Source: Eubacteriaceae bacterium
GTDB taxonomy: Bacteria; Bacillota; Clostridia; Eubacteriales; Eubacteriaceae
NCBI GenBank assembly: GCA_017405085.1
Contig: JAFRBB010000019.1
Span: 1 to 48,473, forward strand
Reading direction: 5' to 3'
DNA: 48,473 nt
Part shown: positions 33,398 to 38,858 of the stretch, piece after piece
Layout: each line of letters starts with the position of its first letter
How positions within the stretch are numbered: position 1 is the stretch's first letter
Notes under the pieces: generated by a model
Databases searched by the model: none
What the model was told of the DNA's origin: nothing
The model's input: only the letters and a program-made list of their open reading frames with translations
Position numbers and translations under genes: made by a program

Positions 33398-33895
33398 ATG
33401 GACAATATTGAACAACATTCCGTCGACGGACTTACCATTGACTGCGAAAGTTTGATTATTTCTCTGCGCCGTGTGCCGTTCAACGCCTTCATCATGAGCC
33501 GGTTGCTTTCCGATCTTGCGGACGCCGGGATCAACGTGGATCTGATCAGCCGGACAGCGCCGGCAAAGGATACGTTTGATGTTTCGGTCATTTTGCCGGA
33601 AAAGGAACTGCCGAAGGTTCGCGACATTGCCAACAATCTGGGCAATGATTATAAAGATATCGGCATCAAAATCAACAAAAGCATCACAAGGCTCAATCTT
33701 CACGGCATCGGCATGCGCACCCAGTCCGGTGTCGCGGCTAAATTTTTGAAGGTTTTTGCCGATAATGATATCCAGGTGCTGATGATCACCACATCGGAAA
33801 TTTGTATTTCCTGCGCCGTGCGGAATGAGGACGCCAAAAAAGCCGTCGACGCGGTCCGATCCCGTTTTCGTCTGGACGATTATGTCGGCATGTGA
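33398..33895 (+). CDS. stand-alone ACT-domain protein, aspartokinase beta-like
   Basis: 165 residues homologous to the regulatory half of LysC just upstream: shared MISMRKVPF/LIISLRRVPF start, VDLISRTAP, LHGIGMRTQSGVAAKFLKV and VLMITTSEICISC match the LysC ACT pair. It has no kinase domain, so it looks like a separately encoded beta-type regulatory subunit. In organisms such as Bacillus subtilis the beta subunit comes from an internal start of the same gene; here it is a second gene. AAGGAGAG precedes ATG 33398. A lysine-binding or LysC-partner role is inferred. Confidence 0.83.
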   Translation: MDNIEQHSVDGLTIDCESLIISLRRVPFNAFIMSRLLSDLADAGINVDLISRTAPAKDTFDVSVILPEKELPKVRDIANNLGNDYKDIGIKINKSITRLNLHGIGMRTQSGVAAKFLKVFADNDIQVLMITTSEICISCAVRNEDAKKAVDAVRSRFRLDDYVGM

Positions 33896-34124: not shown

Positions 34125-37100
34125 TTGAAGAAATCAATTTTCACTAAAATCGGGGAAAGACTTCGAAACAAACCGGATAAGAAAACCAGATCGTCCGCTG
34201 AGGTTCGAAGAAAACAGACATTGAATCCAAAGGATGAGGGCAAAACGAAAGTCGCAAAGCTTGACCGGGATTTAGAGCCGGCGATTGCCGAAGAAAAAGG
34301 ATTGTCCGAATCCGATGCCAAGGATACAGAGCAAGATTTGGCCCAATCCGCGCCTTTGACGGAGGTGACGGCTGAGCCGGCTTCGGATCAGCTGTCCGAA
34401 AAATCTTTTGAGCAAGAAACACCCCTTGAATCAGACGCAGACAACGAGGAAGAGGGCTTAAGGGAATTAGATGCCGAAGATGAAACGGAGAAGGAGAGCG
34501 ATCATTTTGAAGCGCCCGCCGATGCCGCAAGTCCAATCGAAGAAGCCGCTTTGCCCGAGGTTATTCATGACGAATCCGACGACACCGAAAATTACGATTA
34601 TGATTTCGCCCCAAATTTGGATGACGACATGGAAATGAAAGAAGCGTCAGCGATGTCCGGCACGCGAGATAGCGGCAAGGCCAAGGATGTTTCGGAGGAT
34701 TTACCGGATTCGGAAAAAGAAGAGGCGGAAGAAGACCGTGCATCATCGGATAAAAGTCAGGAGGATGACGACGGGAAAACAGATGATAAAGCGGAAAAGA
34801 CTGAAGTCACGCCTGAAATAGAATCCGACGGAACACAGGACGACAGGGCAATCGAAGACGAAAATAAAGAGACAGAAGAGGTTGACGGGCCGGCCGAAGC
34901 ATCAAAAGATCATGACGATTCATCGGTCTTCGGCAAAGACGATGACGAACATGAAAACATTGATGCCGCCGTTACAGAACCGGAAAATGTCTCTGATGAA
35001 GCAGCCCAAGACGAAGATATCGCGGGTAAAACCCAAAACGATGACGCCGGCGCGGATGATGTCAAAGATGACGGCAGCTCAAAGACCGATGAGGCCGGCG
35101 AGACTGACGATGTTAACGCGGAAGAGGACATCAAATCGGAAGACACCGAAAAATCTATCGATGAAACCGAAGAGGCCGAGGCAAGCTCAGACGAGGCCGA
35201 AGATGAGATTGACGTTGAAGCCGATGAAAGCGTCGAGACTGACGATGTCAACCCAGAAGAAACAGAATCGGAAGCCGCCGAGACGCCCGCGGAGGAAATC
35301 GAAAAGGCCGAGGCAAGCTCAGACGAGGCTGAAGATGAGATTGACGTTGAAGCCGATGAAAGCGCCGAGACTGACGATGTCAACCCAGAAGAAACAGAAT
35401 CGGAAGCCGCCGAGACGCCTTCGGATGAAACCGAAGAGGCCGAGGCAAACTCAGACGAGACTGAAAATGATGTTGACATTGAGTCCGAAGAATCAATCAC
35501 GGATGACGACGGCGGCTTAGGAGAGGATATAAAATCGGAAGACGCCGAAAAGCCCGAGGATGAAACCGAAGCGGTTTCAATCATCGCTGAAGCTGCCGAC
35601 GATGTCAAAGACCATGACGCTGATCAATCCGAAAGCGCCGATGATCTATCCGAGGATGTCAAAGCCGATGATGACCAATGTGAATCTGACGTAACATCGG
35701 ATCACGGGGAAGAATCGCCGGACGACACCGAGGCCGAAAGCGCGGAAGCGTCGGATGAATCAGAGCCTGCCGGCGCGCCGGAGGACACCCAATTCAGTGA
35801 ATCGAACGAGGATATTAAAGCGGAGGACGACAATCAAAGTCCCTCCGATGAAATAACAGAAGCCCCCGATGATTTTGACCGACCGGAGGATGAAATCGAG
35901 AAAGAATCGGATTTAACGCAGGCATCCCCAGACGGGAAAGACCCCGAAGCGCAAGACGCGGCGGAAGAAGCAGCGGAGGACGAAAGTCAAAGTCCCTCCG
36001 ATGAAACAACAGACGCTCAGGCGGGGGAACCCGAAGAAGATATCTTAAGCGAAGTCGCGGCTTCCCGTGAAGCTGAAGATGTTTCTCACGACGAGCATTC
36101 CGAAGACGGGATCAGTGAGCCGACGGAGGAACTGCCGATCATTTCCGGCGCGATGTTGGGCGCCGCGGCGGCGGTGTCCGGGCTTGAAAACGATGAGACC
36201 GAGCATAGCGTCGCCCTTTCCGATGAGGAACTCGCGGCATTGGCCGAGGCCGAATCCGAACCCAAGTCAGAAACCGAAACCGGCGAAACAGAAGCGGCAC
36301 AAGATCAAGACGCTTTATCAGAATCTTCTCAACATGAGCCGGTTCACGAAGCGGATGTCGCCGATTTCTTCGCGGTTCCGGAGGTGCCGGAGAAAGACGC
36401 GATATCACCACAGACGGAAAAGGCAGAAGATCAAACCGAGGTTTTGCCCGTATCCGGCGCCGAAGATCAAACCGATCAGCCGGATGACGCCGCCCGGGCC
36501 GGCAGGGTGATTGATCTGTCCGAGCCCGATGAGGAATCGGAAGCCAAATCGACAAGCGATGATAAAAAAGATCAGCCTGCCGAAAAACCCCAAAAGAAAA
36601 AGACAGGCAAAGTTGTTTTCGGCATTTTGGCGGCCATCGTCGGCGTTTTGGCCATTTGCTATGCCGGCGGATGCTTTTTCTATCAAAACCATTTCTTCTT
36701 CGGCACAAAGATCAGCGGCGTCGACGCGTCAAATAAGACGGCCCAAGCCGTTGAAAACAGCATCGAAAAAGACGCCAAAGATTATAAACTGACCCTGAAG
36801 GAACGGGAAAATCAGAGCGAAACCATCGCGGCGAAGGATATCGGCCTTCGTTATTCCGATGATAATCCCGTTCAAAAGGCGCTGGATAAGCAGAATCCGT
36901 TCAAATGGCCCCTTGCCGTTCTCGGCATCAACGACGATGAATTGCCGACAGTGTATGAATATGACGAAGCCAAGCTCAATAAAAAAATTCAAAGCCTCAA
37001 TGCCGTCAGTTCAATGGTCAACGCGGAAAACGCCCATCCTGTCTACAGTGACGGTCAGATTATCATTAAGGGCATGATTCAGGGCAATGAGGTGGATCCG

Positions 37101-37979
37101 AAAGCCTTGACCGACGCGGTCAAAAAAGCCATTGCCAAGGGCGATGAAACCCTCGATCTGGAAGCGAACAAAATCTATAAAAATCCGACTTACGGCGAGG
37201 ATGCCCAGGAAGTTGAAGCCGCCAAAAAAGTGATGGAAGGCTATCTGAAATCCGAAATCACCTATACCATCGGCGAAACGAAAGAAGTTTTGGGTAAAGA
37301 TCAGTTCGGCCCGTGGCTTAAAACCGATGAAGGGATGAATGTGTATATCGATCAAGTTCAAGCGGCGGATTGGATTCATCAAAACCTCGGCGCGAAATAT
37401 GATACGGCCTGGGGCGAACATGATTTTAAAAACAGCGCCGGTCAGCAAATGAAAGTGGAAGGCGGCAATTACGGTTGGGAGATTGACGAGGCGGCAGAGC
37501 TGGATCAATTGATGGCATTGATTCCCAGCGGTCAGAAAAATACCCATGAACCCGCTTGGGCGCAAACCGCTCTTGCCGGCAAAGGAACCCATGCCGATAT
37601 CGGCAACACTTATATCGAAATCAGTTTAGGCTCACAGCATATGTGGTGTTACAAAGATGGCAAACTGGTGATTGACACCGATGTGGTGACCGGGGATGTT
37701 AATCTTGGACGCGGAACGCCGGCAGGTGTCTTTTACATCTACAGTATGCAGGAAAATGCGACGTTAGTCGGCGAGGACTACCGCACGCCGGTGGCCTATT
37801 GGATGCCCTTTAACGGCGGCGTCGGCATTCACGATTCCACCTGGCGCGGCGCCAGCGAATACGGCGGTACAACCTATATGGGCAACGGCTCTCACGGATG
37901 TGTGAATACGCCGCTGGACGTGGTTGCCGTGATTTTTCAAAACGCGGATGTGGGCGAACCCGTTGTGGTGTATTATTGA
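34125..37979 (+). CDS. L,D-transpeptidase with a very long acidic N-terminal region
   Basis: 1284 residues from TTG 34125 (AAAAAAGGG upstream). Residues 1-825 are low-complexity, dominated by Glu, Asp, Ser and Ala, with a basic start (KKSIFTKIGERLRNKPDKK) and a 132-bp/44-residue tandem repeat. Near residue 826 KPQKKKTGK precedes one membrane helix (about 828-850), so the acidic part is predicted cytoplasmic. Residues about 855-1150 resemble a peptidoglycan-binding-type domain. Residues about 1158-1284 are a YkuD domain with SHGCVN, catalytic Cys about 1259 and His about 1257. The enzyme would cross-link or anchor peptidoglycan outside, while the tail stays inside; the tail's role is unknown. 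Confidence 0.85.
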   Translation: MKKSIFTKIGERLRNKPDKKTRSSAEVRRKQTLNPKDEGKTKVAKLDRDLEPAIAEEKGLSESDAKDTEQDLAQSAPLTEVTAEPASDQLSEKSFEQETPLESDADNEEEGLRELDAEDETEKESDHFEAPADAASPIEEAALPEVIHDESDDTENYDYDFAPNLDDDMEMKEASAMSGTRDSGKAKDVSEDLPDSEKEEAEEDRASSDKSQEDDDGKTDDKAEKTEVTPEIESDGTQDDRAIEDENKETEEVDGPAEASKDHDDSSVFGKDDDEHENIDAAVTEPENVSDEAAQDEDIAGKTQNDDAGADDVKDDGSSKTDEAGETDDVNAEEDIKSEDTEKSIDETEEAEASSDEAEDEIDVEADESVETDDVNPEETESEAAETPAEEIEKAEASSDEAEDEIDVEADESAETDDVNPEETESEAAETPSDETEEAEANSDETENDVDIESEESITDDDGGLGEDIKSEDAEKPEDETEAVSIIAEAADDVKDHDADQSESADDLSEDVKADDDQCESDVTSDHGEESPDDTEAESAEASDESEPAGAPEDTQFSESNEDIKAEDDNQSPSDEITEAPDDFDRPEDEIEKESDLTQASPDGKDPEAQDAAEEAAEDESQSPSDETTDAQAGEPEEDILSEVAASREAEDVSHDEHSEDGISEPTEELPIISGAMLGAAAAVSGLENDETEHSVALSDEELAALAEAESEPKSETETGETEAAQDQDALSESSQHEPVHEADVADFFAVPEVPEKDAISPQTEKAEDQTEVLPVSGAEDQTDQPDDAARAGRVIDLSEPDEESEAKSTSDDKKDQPAEKPQKKKTGKVVFGILAAIVGVLAICYAGGCFFYQNHFFFGTKISGVDASNKTAQAVENSIEKDAKDYKLTLKERENQSETIAAKDIGLRYSDDNPVQKALDKQNPFKWPLAVLGINDDELPTVYEYDEAKLNKKIQSLNAVSSMVNAENAHPVYSDGQIIIKGMIQGNEVDPKALTDAVKKAIAKGDETLDLEANKIYKNPTYGEDAQEVEAAKKVMEGYLKSEITYTIGETKEVLGKDQFGPWLKTDEGMNVYIDQVQAADWIHQNLGAKYDTAWGEHDFKNSAGQQMKVEGGNYGWEIDEAAELDQLMALIPSGQKNTHEPAWAQTALAGKGTHADIGNTYIEISLGSQHMWCYKDGKLVIDTDVVTGDVNLGRGTPAGVFYIYSMQENATLVGEDYRTPVAYWMPFNGGVGIHDSTWRGASEYGGTTYMGNGSHGCVNTPLDVVAVIFQNADVGEPVVVYY

Positions 37980-38047: not shown

Positions 38048-38201
38048 CTTTGGTATTAACCAATAACCCCCCGCTATGCCGGGGGAACCATCATTTTCAA
38101 AAGGACGCTTTCAATCAAAAAACGTCAAAAAGGCTATCTGGATACCCAGCACCCTTTTTGACGCGCAGTGATCGTCAAGATGATAAAAAAAAACAAAAAA
38201 A

Positions 38202-38288
38202 TGGTGCCGAAGGAGGGACTCGAACCCTCACGGTATTGCTACCAACGGATTTTGAATCCGTCACGTCTGCCAATTCCATCACTTCGGC
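38202..38288 (-). tRNA. tRNA-Leu (CAA)
   Basis: 87 nt with encoded CCA and a long variable arm, as in Leu tRNAs. The acceptor pair is GCCGAAG / CTTCGGC, the anticodon loop TTCAAAA gives CAA, and the T-arm has GGGTTCGAGTCCC. Confidence 0.93.
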
Positions 38289-38299
38289 ATCATTCGATT

Positions 38300-38858
38300 A
38301 CGGTATTTATCTTACCATAACATGTTGGGTATTTCAAATGTTTTTTTATGATATTCTAAATTATTTTGGATGGGATCATCGTCACACAAGGAAGCGAAGA
38401 CAAAGGGATTGATCCAAGCCCCGGACGGCACTTGGTTTATATCTTAAAGCCCCGTCACTTGTTTAGACAGGATCAGTCCATATTCGCGGCGTATCGGTTT
38501 GATGATGCGGTGATATGGGGTTCTCGCATTAAACGGCTGAGCCCTATTTGATTTAACGAATGCGGCTCGGTCCATTGGTGATTGGATTTTGATCGGTCAA
38601 CAGGCACGCTCTGTTTGAAAAGCCGCCTATCTTGATGATGTCCCGATTGCCGGTTGATGATCAATATGCGACGCATTTATCCGATATGACGGGGTTGTCT
38701 CTTTGATCAATGCTCGTATGACATTGCGTTTTACATGCTTTTACAATATGATTTAAGACTAACTGTCCAACCGGAGATTGATCGATTCAAATCGTTTCGT
38801 GAATCAACGATCCAACCCTTGATGGATCTTTCCCGTTATCTTCGCGAAAGCCGTCATG
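38300..38858. other. intergenic stretch with possible decayed coding sequence
   Basis: About 560 bp between tRNA-Leu and the EIIA gene. One plus-strand frame reads YDLRLTVQPEIDRFKSF and ESTIQPLMDLSRYLRESRHA before a stop near 38873. An adjacent frame reads FEKPPILMMSRLPVDDQYAT. The pieces look protein-like but are split by stops and shifts. I recognise no family and no RNA, so this is only a weak pseudogene candidate. Confidence 0.35.

Follow-up and report, generated by a model that had tools for sequence, protein, structure and literature searches.

Why should an L,D-transpeptidase (Ldt) carry 829 residues ahead of its membrane helix? The question is raised by one gene in the window, by which we mean the entire 48,473-nucleotide contig from a Eubacteriaceae bacterium (JAFRBB010000019.1) that was analyzed. 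Cross-links made by Ldts are not blocked by most beta-lactams, and little is understood of how the cell positions or controls the activity of these enzymes from within. An initial annotation had reported an Ldt with a large acidic tail and had ended the tail at 36600. This was correct to within a few codons: the tail is residues 1-829, or positions 34125-36611 (Table 1).

The gene is a single open reading frame that begins at a TTG codon and encodes 1284 amino acids (34125-37979, + strand). No in-frame ATG was found upstream of this start. The preceding gene stops at 33895, and the gap of 229 bases suggests that the Ldt gene forms its own transcription unit. (The preceding gene, at 33398-33895 on the + strand, encodes a stand-alone ACT-domain protein of 165 amino acids and lies 13 bases behind a complete aspartate kinase of 401 amino acids. 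The small protein resembles the kinase's own ACT part and is perhaps a separate regulatory subunit. On the other side of the Ldt gene, at 38202-38288 on the - strand, is a tRNA-Leu (caa) gene; an open reading frame that overlaps it on the opposite strand, 38050-38412, is probably spurious.) The long frame of the tail is not a product of chance, because it runs without a stop, the tails of orthologues have dN/dS below 1, codon choice is mixed, and an intact enzyme lies alongside. Except for one 132-bp unit, the mixed codon choice means that the tail is not a simple nucleotide repeat.

Table 1. Features of the Ldt gene and the basis for each
Feature	Residues	Position	Strand	Basis
Shine-Dalgarno-like GGGAA and TTG start codon		34111..34127	+	Read directly; GGGAA is about 9 bases upstream of TTG
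Basic N-terminal head, net +11	1-45	34125..34259	+	Composition
Acidic low-complexity region, net -249, predicted disordered	46-798	34260..36518	+	Composition, charge-hydropathy
Tandem repeat within acidic region, 132-bp (44-aa) unit, 2.4-3.1 copies		35160..35571	+	Tandem Repeats Finder
Hydrophobic patch ELPIISGAMLGAAAAVSGL	669-687	36129..36185	+	Insertion score +6.1 vs. -1.25 for the helix
Membrane-proximal motif AGRVIDLSE, recurrent in relatives	792-800	36498..36524	+	Leave-one-out profile scan (p=0.0003 for the window's tail)
Lys-rich neck preceding the helix	813-829	36561..36611	+	Sequence reading; K/R counts
Single transmembrane helix	~830-848	36612..36668	+	Flat Hessa scale, -1.25 at 830
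PG_binding_4 domain (PF12229)	900-1008	36822..37148	+	53.7 bits, above Pfam cut-off
YkuD L,D-transpeptidase domain (PF03734)	1162-1282	37608..37970	+	69.7 bits vs. cut-off of 23.4

Judging by its domains, the folded part of the protein is an ordinary enzyme of the Ldt_fm/LdtCd1 type, with a single helix, a PG_binding_4 domain, and a C-terminal YkuD domain, and it is predicted to form 3-3 cross-links. Both domains score above the Pfam cut-offs and lie where the initial annotation had put them, in the last third of the protein. The SHGC active site is intact (SHGCVN at residues 1256-1261, with Cys1259), and its His and Cys are invariant in our alignment (A1). The catalytic domain and the domain before it are shared with Ldt_fm of Enterococcus faecium (PDB 1zat; profile match 9.5e-72, positions 207-453), which is also anchored by a transmembrane helix. 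There are profile matches to other solved L,D-transpeptidases as well, and the fold of the enzyme is already fixed by 1zat and 6fj1.

Two other YkuD proteins are worth describing. The genome's second one (L002, contig C14, 22275-22631) has a long array of Trp-rich repeats before its catalytic domain, and these repeats resemble clostridial ChW repeats. In one Ldt homologue (L027, match at 1501-2883), the GSHGCVNTP site reads GTDGDVDVP, so that the catalytic His and Cys are lost; this is possibly a dead enzyme, and it keeps an acidic tail of 60 residues (net -16) despite the loss.

The initial annotation had also proposed that low-complexity sequence is followed by a Lys-rich stretch and one membrane helix, and that the tail lies in the cytoplasm by the positive-inside rule. 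Both proposals agree with our results. On the flat Hessa scale, residues 830-848 are the only predicted insertion. K/R are more numerous in the 15 residues leading up to the helix than after it in 99 of the 101 homologues (mean of 5.2 vs. 0.9). As the enzyme is necessarily outside the membrane and there is a single helix, the tail would be in the cytoplasm. An external tail would be expected if, for example, the patch at 669-687 were a second helix. Only one stretch is more hydrophobic than the patch, but we rejected it as a membrane helix on its predicted insertion energy (+6.1, the next best after the helix). It also has no positive flank, and given the charge pattern of the homologues, we consider an external tail hardly credible.

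In composition, the acidic region of the tail is 38.4% D/E, 5.3% K/R, and 1.3% aromatic, while the extracellular part is ordinary (net -26). On a charge-hydropathy plot, the extracellular part falls on the folded side, and the tail lies deep in the disordered region. Five or more D/E never occur in a row, and no stretch of 30 residues contains more than 17 of them. The basic head holds a possible amphipathic stretch, IFTKIGERLRN, whose hydrophobic moment (0.66) is the fifth highest among all segments of the tail. The units of the 132-bp repeat differ from each other in codons, and tandem duplication of this unit accounts for part of the tail's extreme length.

We compared the tail to those of orthologues from the same family and order and of 80 named clostridial homologues, and we measured every tail. 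(We took the first ATG as the start of each homologue, and a few tail lengths may be overestimates for this reason.) The tails range from 3 to 829 residues, and the window's Ldt has the longest. The median for relatives is 26.5 amino acids, and many are short. Length and charge are linked: none of the 53 tails of under 30 residues are net negative, while 30 of the 32 tails of at least 60 residues are. We refer to this as the length-charge rule.

Overall, 32 of the 104 clostridial enzymes compared have a tail that is both at least 60 residues long and net negative. On a tree of the 104 enzyme domains, this label requires 13 changes, 11 of which are forced by starred branches, while shuffled labels require about 27. 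In the window's clade (SH-aLRT of 88), 13 of 14 rows carry the label. By this reconstruction, the acidic tail dates from the origin of the clade or close to it, and elsewhere on the tree there were repeated gains or losses. Every one of the nearest relatives has an acidic tail, with lengths of 80-442 amino acids. (In the nearest, L005, at 56% identity, the contig ends inside the tail, and the 105 residues present are a lower bound.) The initial annotation had named tail-less orthologues, together with a chance expansion, as the case against its reading; the nearest relatives do not fit that case, although tandem duplication did contribute to the tail's length. Compared in this way, the tail in the window is the most extreme case of a recurrent and little-studied pattern, and not a one-off oddity.

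The tails evolve quickly. Across six species pairs with measurable values, dN/dS is 0.17-0.34 in the tail and 0.04-0.09 in the enzyme part, and these values are rough, as some pairs have high levels of synonymous change and low-complexity sequence is hard to align with certainty. Values that are below 1 but above those of the enzyme part speak for a tail that is translated and weakly constrained, that is, under relaxed but purifying constraint. For the greater part of the 829 residues, no alignment is possible, even with the nearest relatives. Among four relatives that form a quartet (L009-L012), there are conserved islands in the first ~100 aligned columns (GLFE[KR] and VN.RLRERSFEIAE), and the remainder drifts.

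A candidate for a conserved motif in the window's tail lies close to the membrane. The counterparts of AGRVIDLSE are VGAKLDLSQ in L005, FGATLNLDY in L006, EGRTIDLGA in L008, and AGEVLTFEE in L013; in several genera, the motif AG[RE][VT][IL][DNT][LF] is 25-45 residues upstream of the helix. Leave-one-out profiles gave p=0.0047 for L005 and p=0.11-0.13 for L006, L008, and L013, and combining all five sequences, including the window's, gives 2e-5 (Fisher). The motif was the best match in four of the five scans. We consider it a good lead and not proof, because we first picked it by eye, before profile scoring, and because the best match in L006 is at another site. The motif is absent from the L009-L012 group.

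Other motif searches gave less. The RLRE motif of the L008/L010/L012 group was not significant in the window's tail (p=0.32), nor was a pairwise search of this tail against the class A PBP tail (p~0.27); a search against the MltG tail gave p~0.03, uncorrected. PASTA kinases (L208-L226) have a juxtamembrane motif, approximately [SGD][LV]F[KHRQ][VI]E, that is conserved in most members of the family. We rejected an LF motif common to this juxtamembrane region, MltG, and the Ldt tails, as a profile built from the kinases only gave p=0.4 (Fisher) for the Ldt tails. (The loose pattern [LIV]Fx[DEKR] had looked enriched, judged after the fact.)

More broadly, charged cytoplasmic tails are common on the wall enzymes of this bacterial family. 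The genome's class A PBP has a tail of 234 residues of mixed charge. In the same family, class A PBPs (L148, L149, L153-L156) have cytoplasmic tails of 200-240 residues with recurrent short motifs: FSFxxFxG, VG[AS][TA]IE[NT]L, and, adjoining the helix, GLP[KRS][KR]. Within the family, long tails of class A PBPs and MltG are of either sign, while 14 of 14 Ldt tails are negative (p=0.0002, in a test that ignores kinship), which hints at a preference for acidic charge that is specific to Ldt.

We favor, tentatively and at slightly under an even chance, a cytoplasmic, disordered tail of motifs plus spacer that docks or regulates an enzyme of the Ldt_fm/LdtCd1 type. The protein would be a type II membrane-anchored Ldt whose enzyme part cross-links peptidoglycan outside the membrane, and the tail would be an extended, disordered acidic chain in the cytoplasm. 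Close to the membrane, and probably at the N-terminal end as well, short conserved motifs would bind a cytoplasmic partner or be phosphorylated, and in this way the cell could bring the enzyme to sites of growth or division or hold it in check there. The role of the acidic filler would be to keep the chain extended and soluble, and its length would be free to change by duplication. The sequences themselves show the anatomy, the homology, the recurrence of acidic tails, the length-charge rule, the relaxed but purifying constraint, and one recurrent motif; we infer the topology, the disorder, and the docking of the tail. In favor of this reading are the inherited and recurrent acidic tails, the length-charge rule, the negative sign shared by the Ldt tails, the dN/dS values, the conserved islands, the membrane-proximal motif, a PASTA Ser/Thr kinase in the genome (L203, 577 amino acids, with an HRDIKP kinase motif and PASTA domains), and the precedents described below. 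The membrane-proximal motif lends modest support to docking, which the initial annotation had listed among several possible roles. Counting against the reading are the many short-tailed relatives, the failure to find a DivIVA/GpsB hub in this genome, the unenriched LF motif, the choice of the membrane-proximal motif by eye and its absence in L009-L012, and the large share of the tail that does not align.

The strongest rival to docking is that the tail is a loosely constrained expansion: a soluble acidic spacer that the cell tolerates, lengthened by slippage and tandem duplication, with little role other than being harmless, so that only a short membrane-proximal part matters. We see this as a serious possibility, if a doubtful one. 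The 132-bp repeat fits with it, as do the many indels, a dN/dS that exceeds the value for the enzyme part by a factor of about 3-5, and tail lengths that vary from under 10 to 829 amino acids in one family. Acidic disorder is also generally tolerated better than basic or hydrophobic filler, and the long tails of both class A and class B PBPs in the window's genus suggest a lineage-wide habit. Against it are the presence of the acidic tail in nearly the whole clade and again elsewhere on the tree, a charge sign that is specific to Ldt and not to PBP-A or MltG tails in the same genomes, a dN/dS well below 1, and the conserved islands.

Another explanation is electrostatic: the acidic Ldt tail might pair with basic disordered tails under the membrane and thereby gather the machinery for wall synthesis. 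In both species of the window's genus, the class B PBP (L119, L120) has a tail of 119 amino acids with a net charge of +31, compared to 16-37 amino acids and +5 to +14 in the rest of the family, and the genome's LCP protein has a long basic tail. Also, the tail lengths of Ldt and PBP-A are correlated in the family (rho 0.65, p 0.016, 13 genomes, ignoring kinship), but this weakens with about one genome per genus (p 0.07) and disappears across the order (rho 0.33, p 0.17), and relatives with acidic Ldt tails of 200-344 amino acids have PBP-A tails of just 7-16 amino acids. We find pairing improbable, and we make no claim of co-expansion of the two tails, which was seen within the family only and without correction for kinship. 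Alternatively, a polyanion on the inner face of the membrane, repelled by the nucleoid and the crowded membrane, might bias the enzyme towards the nucleoid-free septum or poles. The acidity of long tails in general would fit, as would a net charge of about -240 confined to a single face of the membrane, but the conserved motifs would be left unexplained and we found no published case in open-access papers; we judge such positioning quite improbable. The initial annotation had also suggested a sponge for Mg2+/Ca2+ or polycations, and the acidic chain might instead act during its own synthesis, as a Mg2+-dependent sensor of translation that destabilizes the ribosome. The very high acidic content is the attraction of both ideas. 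By our reasoning, though, a single membrane protein offers too few sites to buffer cellular Mg2+, and the lack of long D/E runs and the basic head that precedes the acidic part argue against a sponge and a sensor alike, so we think that both are very improbable. The same annotation's suggestions of a condensate-forming tail and of a size-sensing tether found no support.

A bolder version of the docking reading is that clostridial Ldts repeatedly evolved long acidic tails in the cytoplasm, by which wall cross-linking is tied to a cytoplasmic hub other than GpsB/DivIVA, via a short membrane-proximal motif and perhaps also via pairing of opposite charges with the basic tails of class B PBP and LCP proteins. 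We regard this version as unlikely. If it is true, there is a cytoplasmic layer of control over 3-3 cross-linking. The recurrence of the tail, the link between its length and charge, and the presence of one or more recurrent motifs give a concrete handle on the control of Ldts.

The closest known Ldts are Ldt_fm and LdtCd1. LdtCd1 of Clostridioides difficile has the same kind of architecture, with a transmembrane helix, PG_binding_4, and YkuD, and Ldt_fm is described as anchored by a transmembrane helix; the excerpted parts of the review that covers them mention transmembrane helices and PG4 domains in L,D-transpeptidases but no large cytoplasmic domain (PMC12729407). In L045, a homologue whose record is titled C. 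difficile CD160, the tail is 19 residues long, vs. 829 in the window's Ldt. The initial annotation had called such a tail foreign to known L,D-transpeptidase designs. This was too strong, as acidic tails of 60-440 amino acids recur across the Clostridia, but we found no description of them in open-access papers, and their recurrence and the length-charge rule appear to be undescribed in that literature.

The nearest precedents for docking come from other wall proteins. In PBPs whose mini-domains are bound by GpsB, a short cytoplasmic motif adjoining the membrane recruits wall enzymes (PMC6335420). We rejected the window's Ldt as a client of GpsB: on reading its tail, we saw no SRxxR(R/K) client motif, and the genome, which is 96% complete, has no match to the DivIVA/GpsB family (PF05103) at E<=0.001. 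MapZ of Streptococcus pneumoniae is similar to the window's Ldt in that it is bitopic and has a disordered N-terminal cytoplasmic domain (residues 1-159) with a positive start; this domain contains short functional motifs, and the protein is a kinase target (PMC7055233). MapZ belongs to another protein family, its outer part is not an Ldt, and its tail is shorter. MltG of Enterococcus faecalis is, like the window's Ldt, a bitopic wall enzyme with an extended disordered cytoplasmic segment (PMC12369325). It is a different enzyme, and its segment is phosphorylated under the control of a PASTA kinase; phosphorylation of the window's tail is a candidate mechanism. Finally, PonA1 has a phosphorylated cytoplasmic tail, and deleting this tail altered the rate of elongation while localization was unchanged (PMC4483258), so a "docking" tail need not be one that positions its enzyme.
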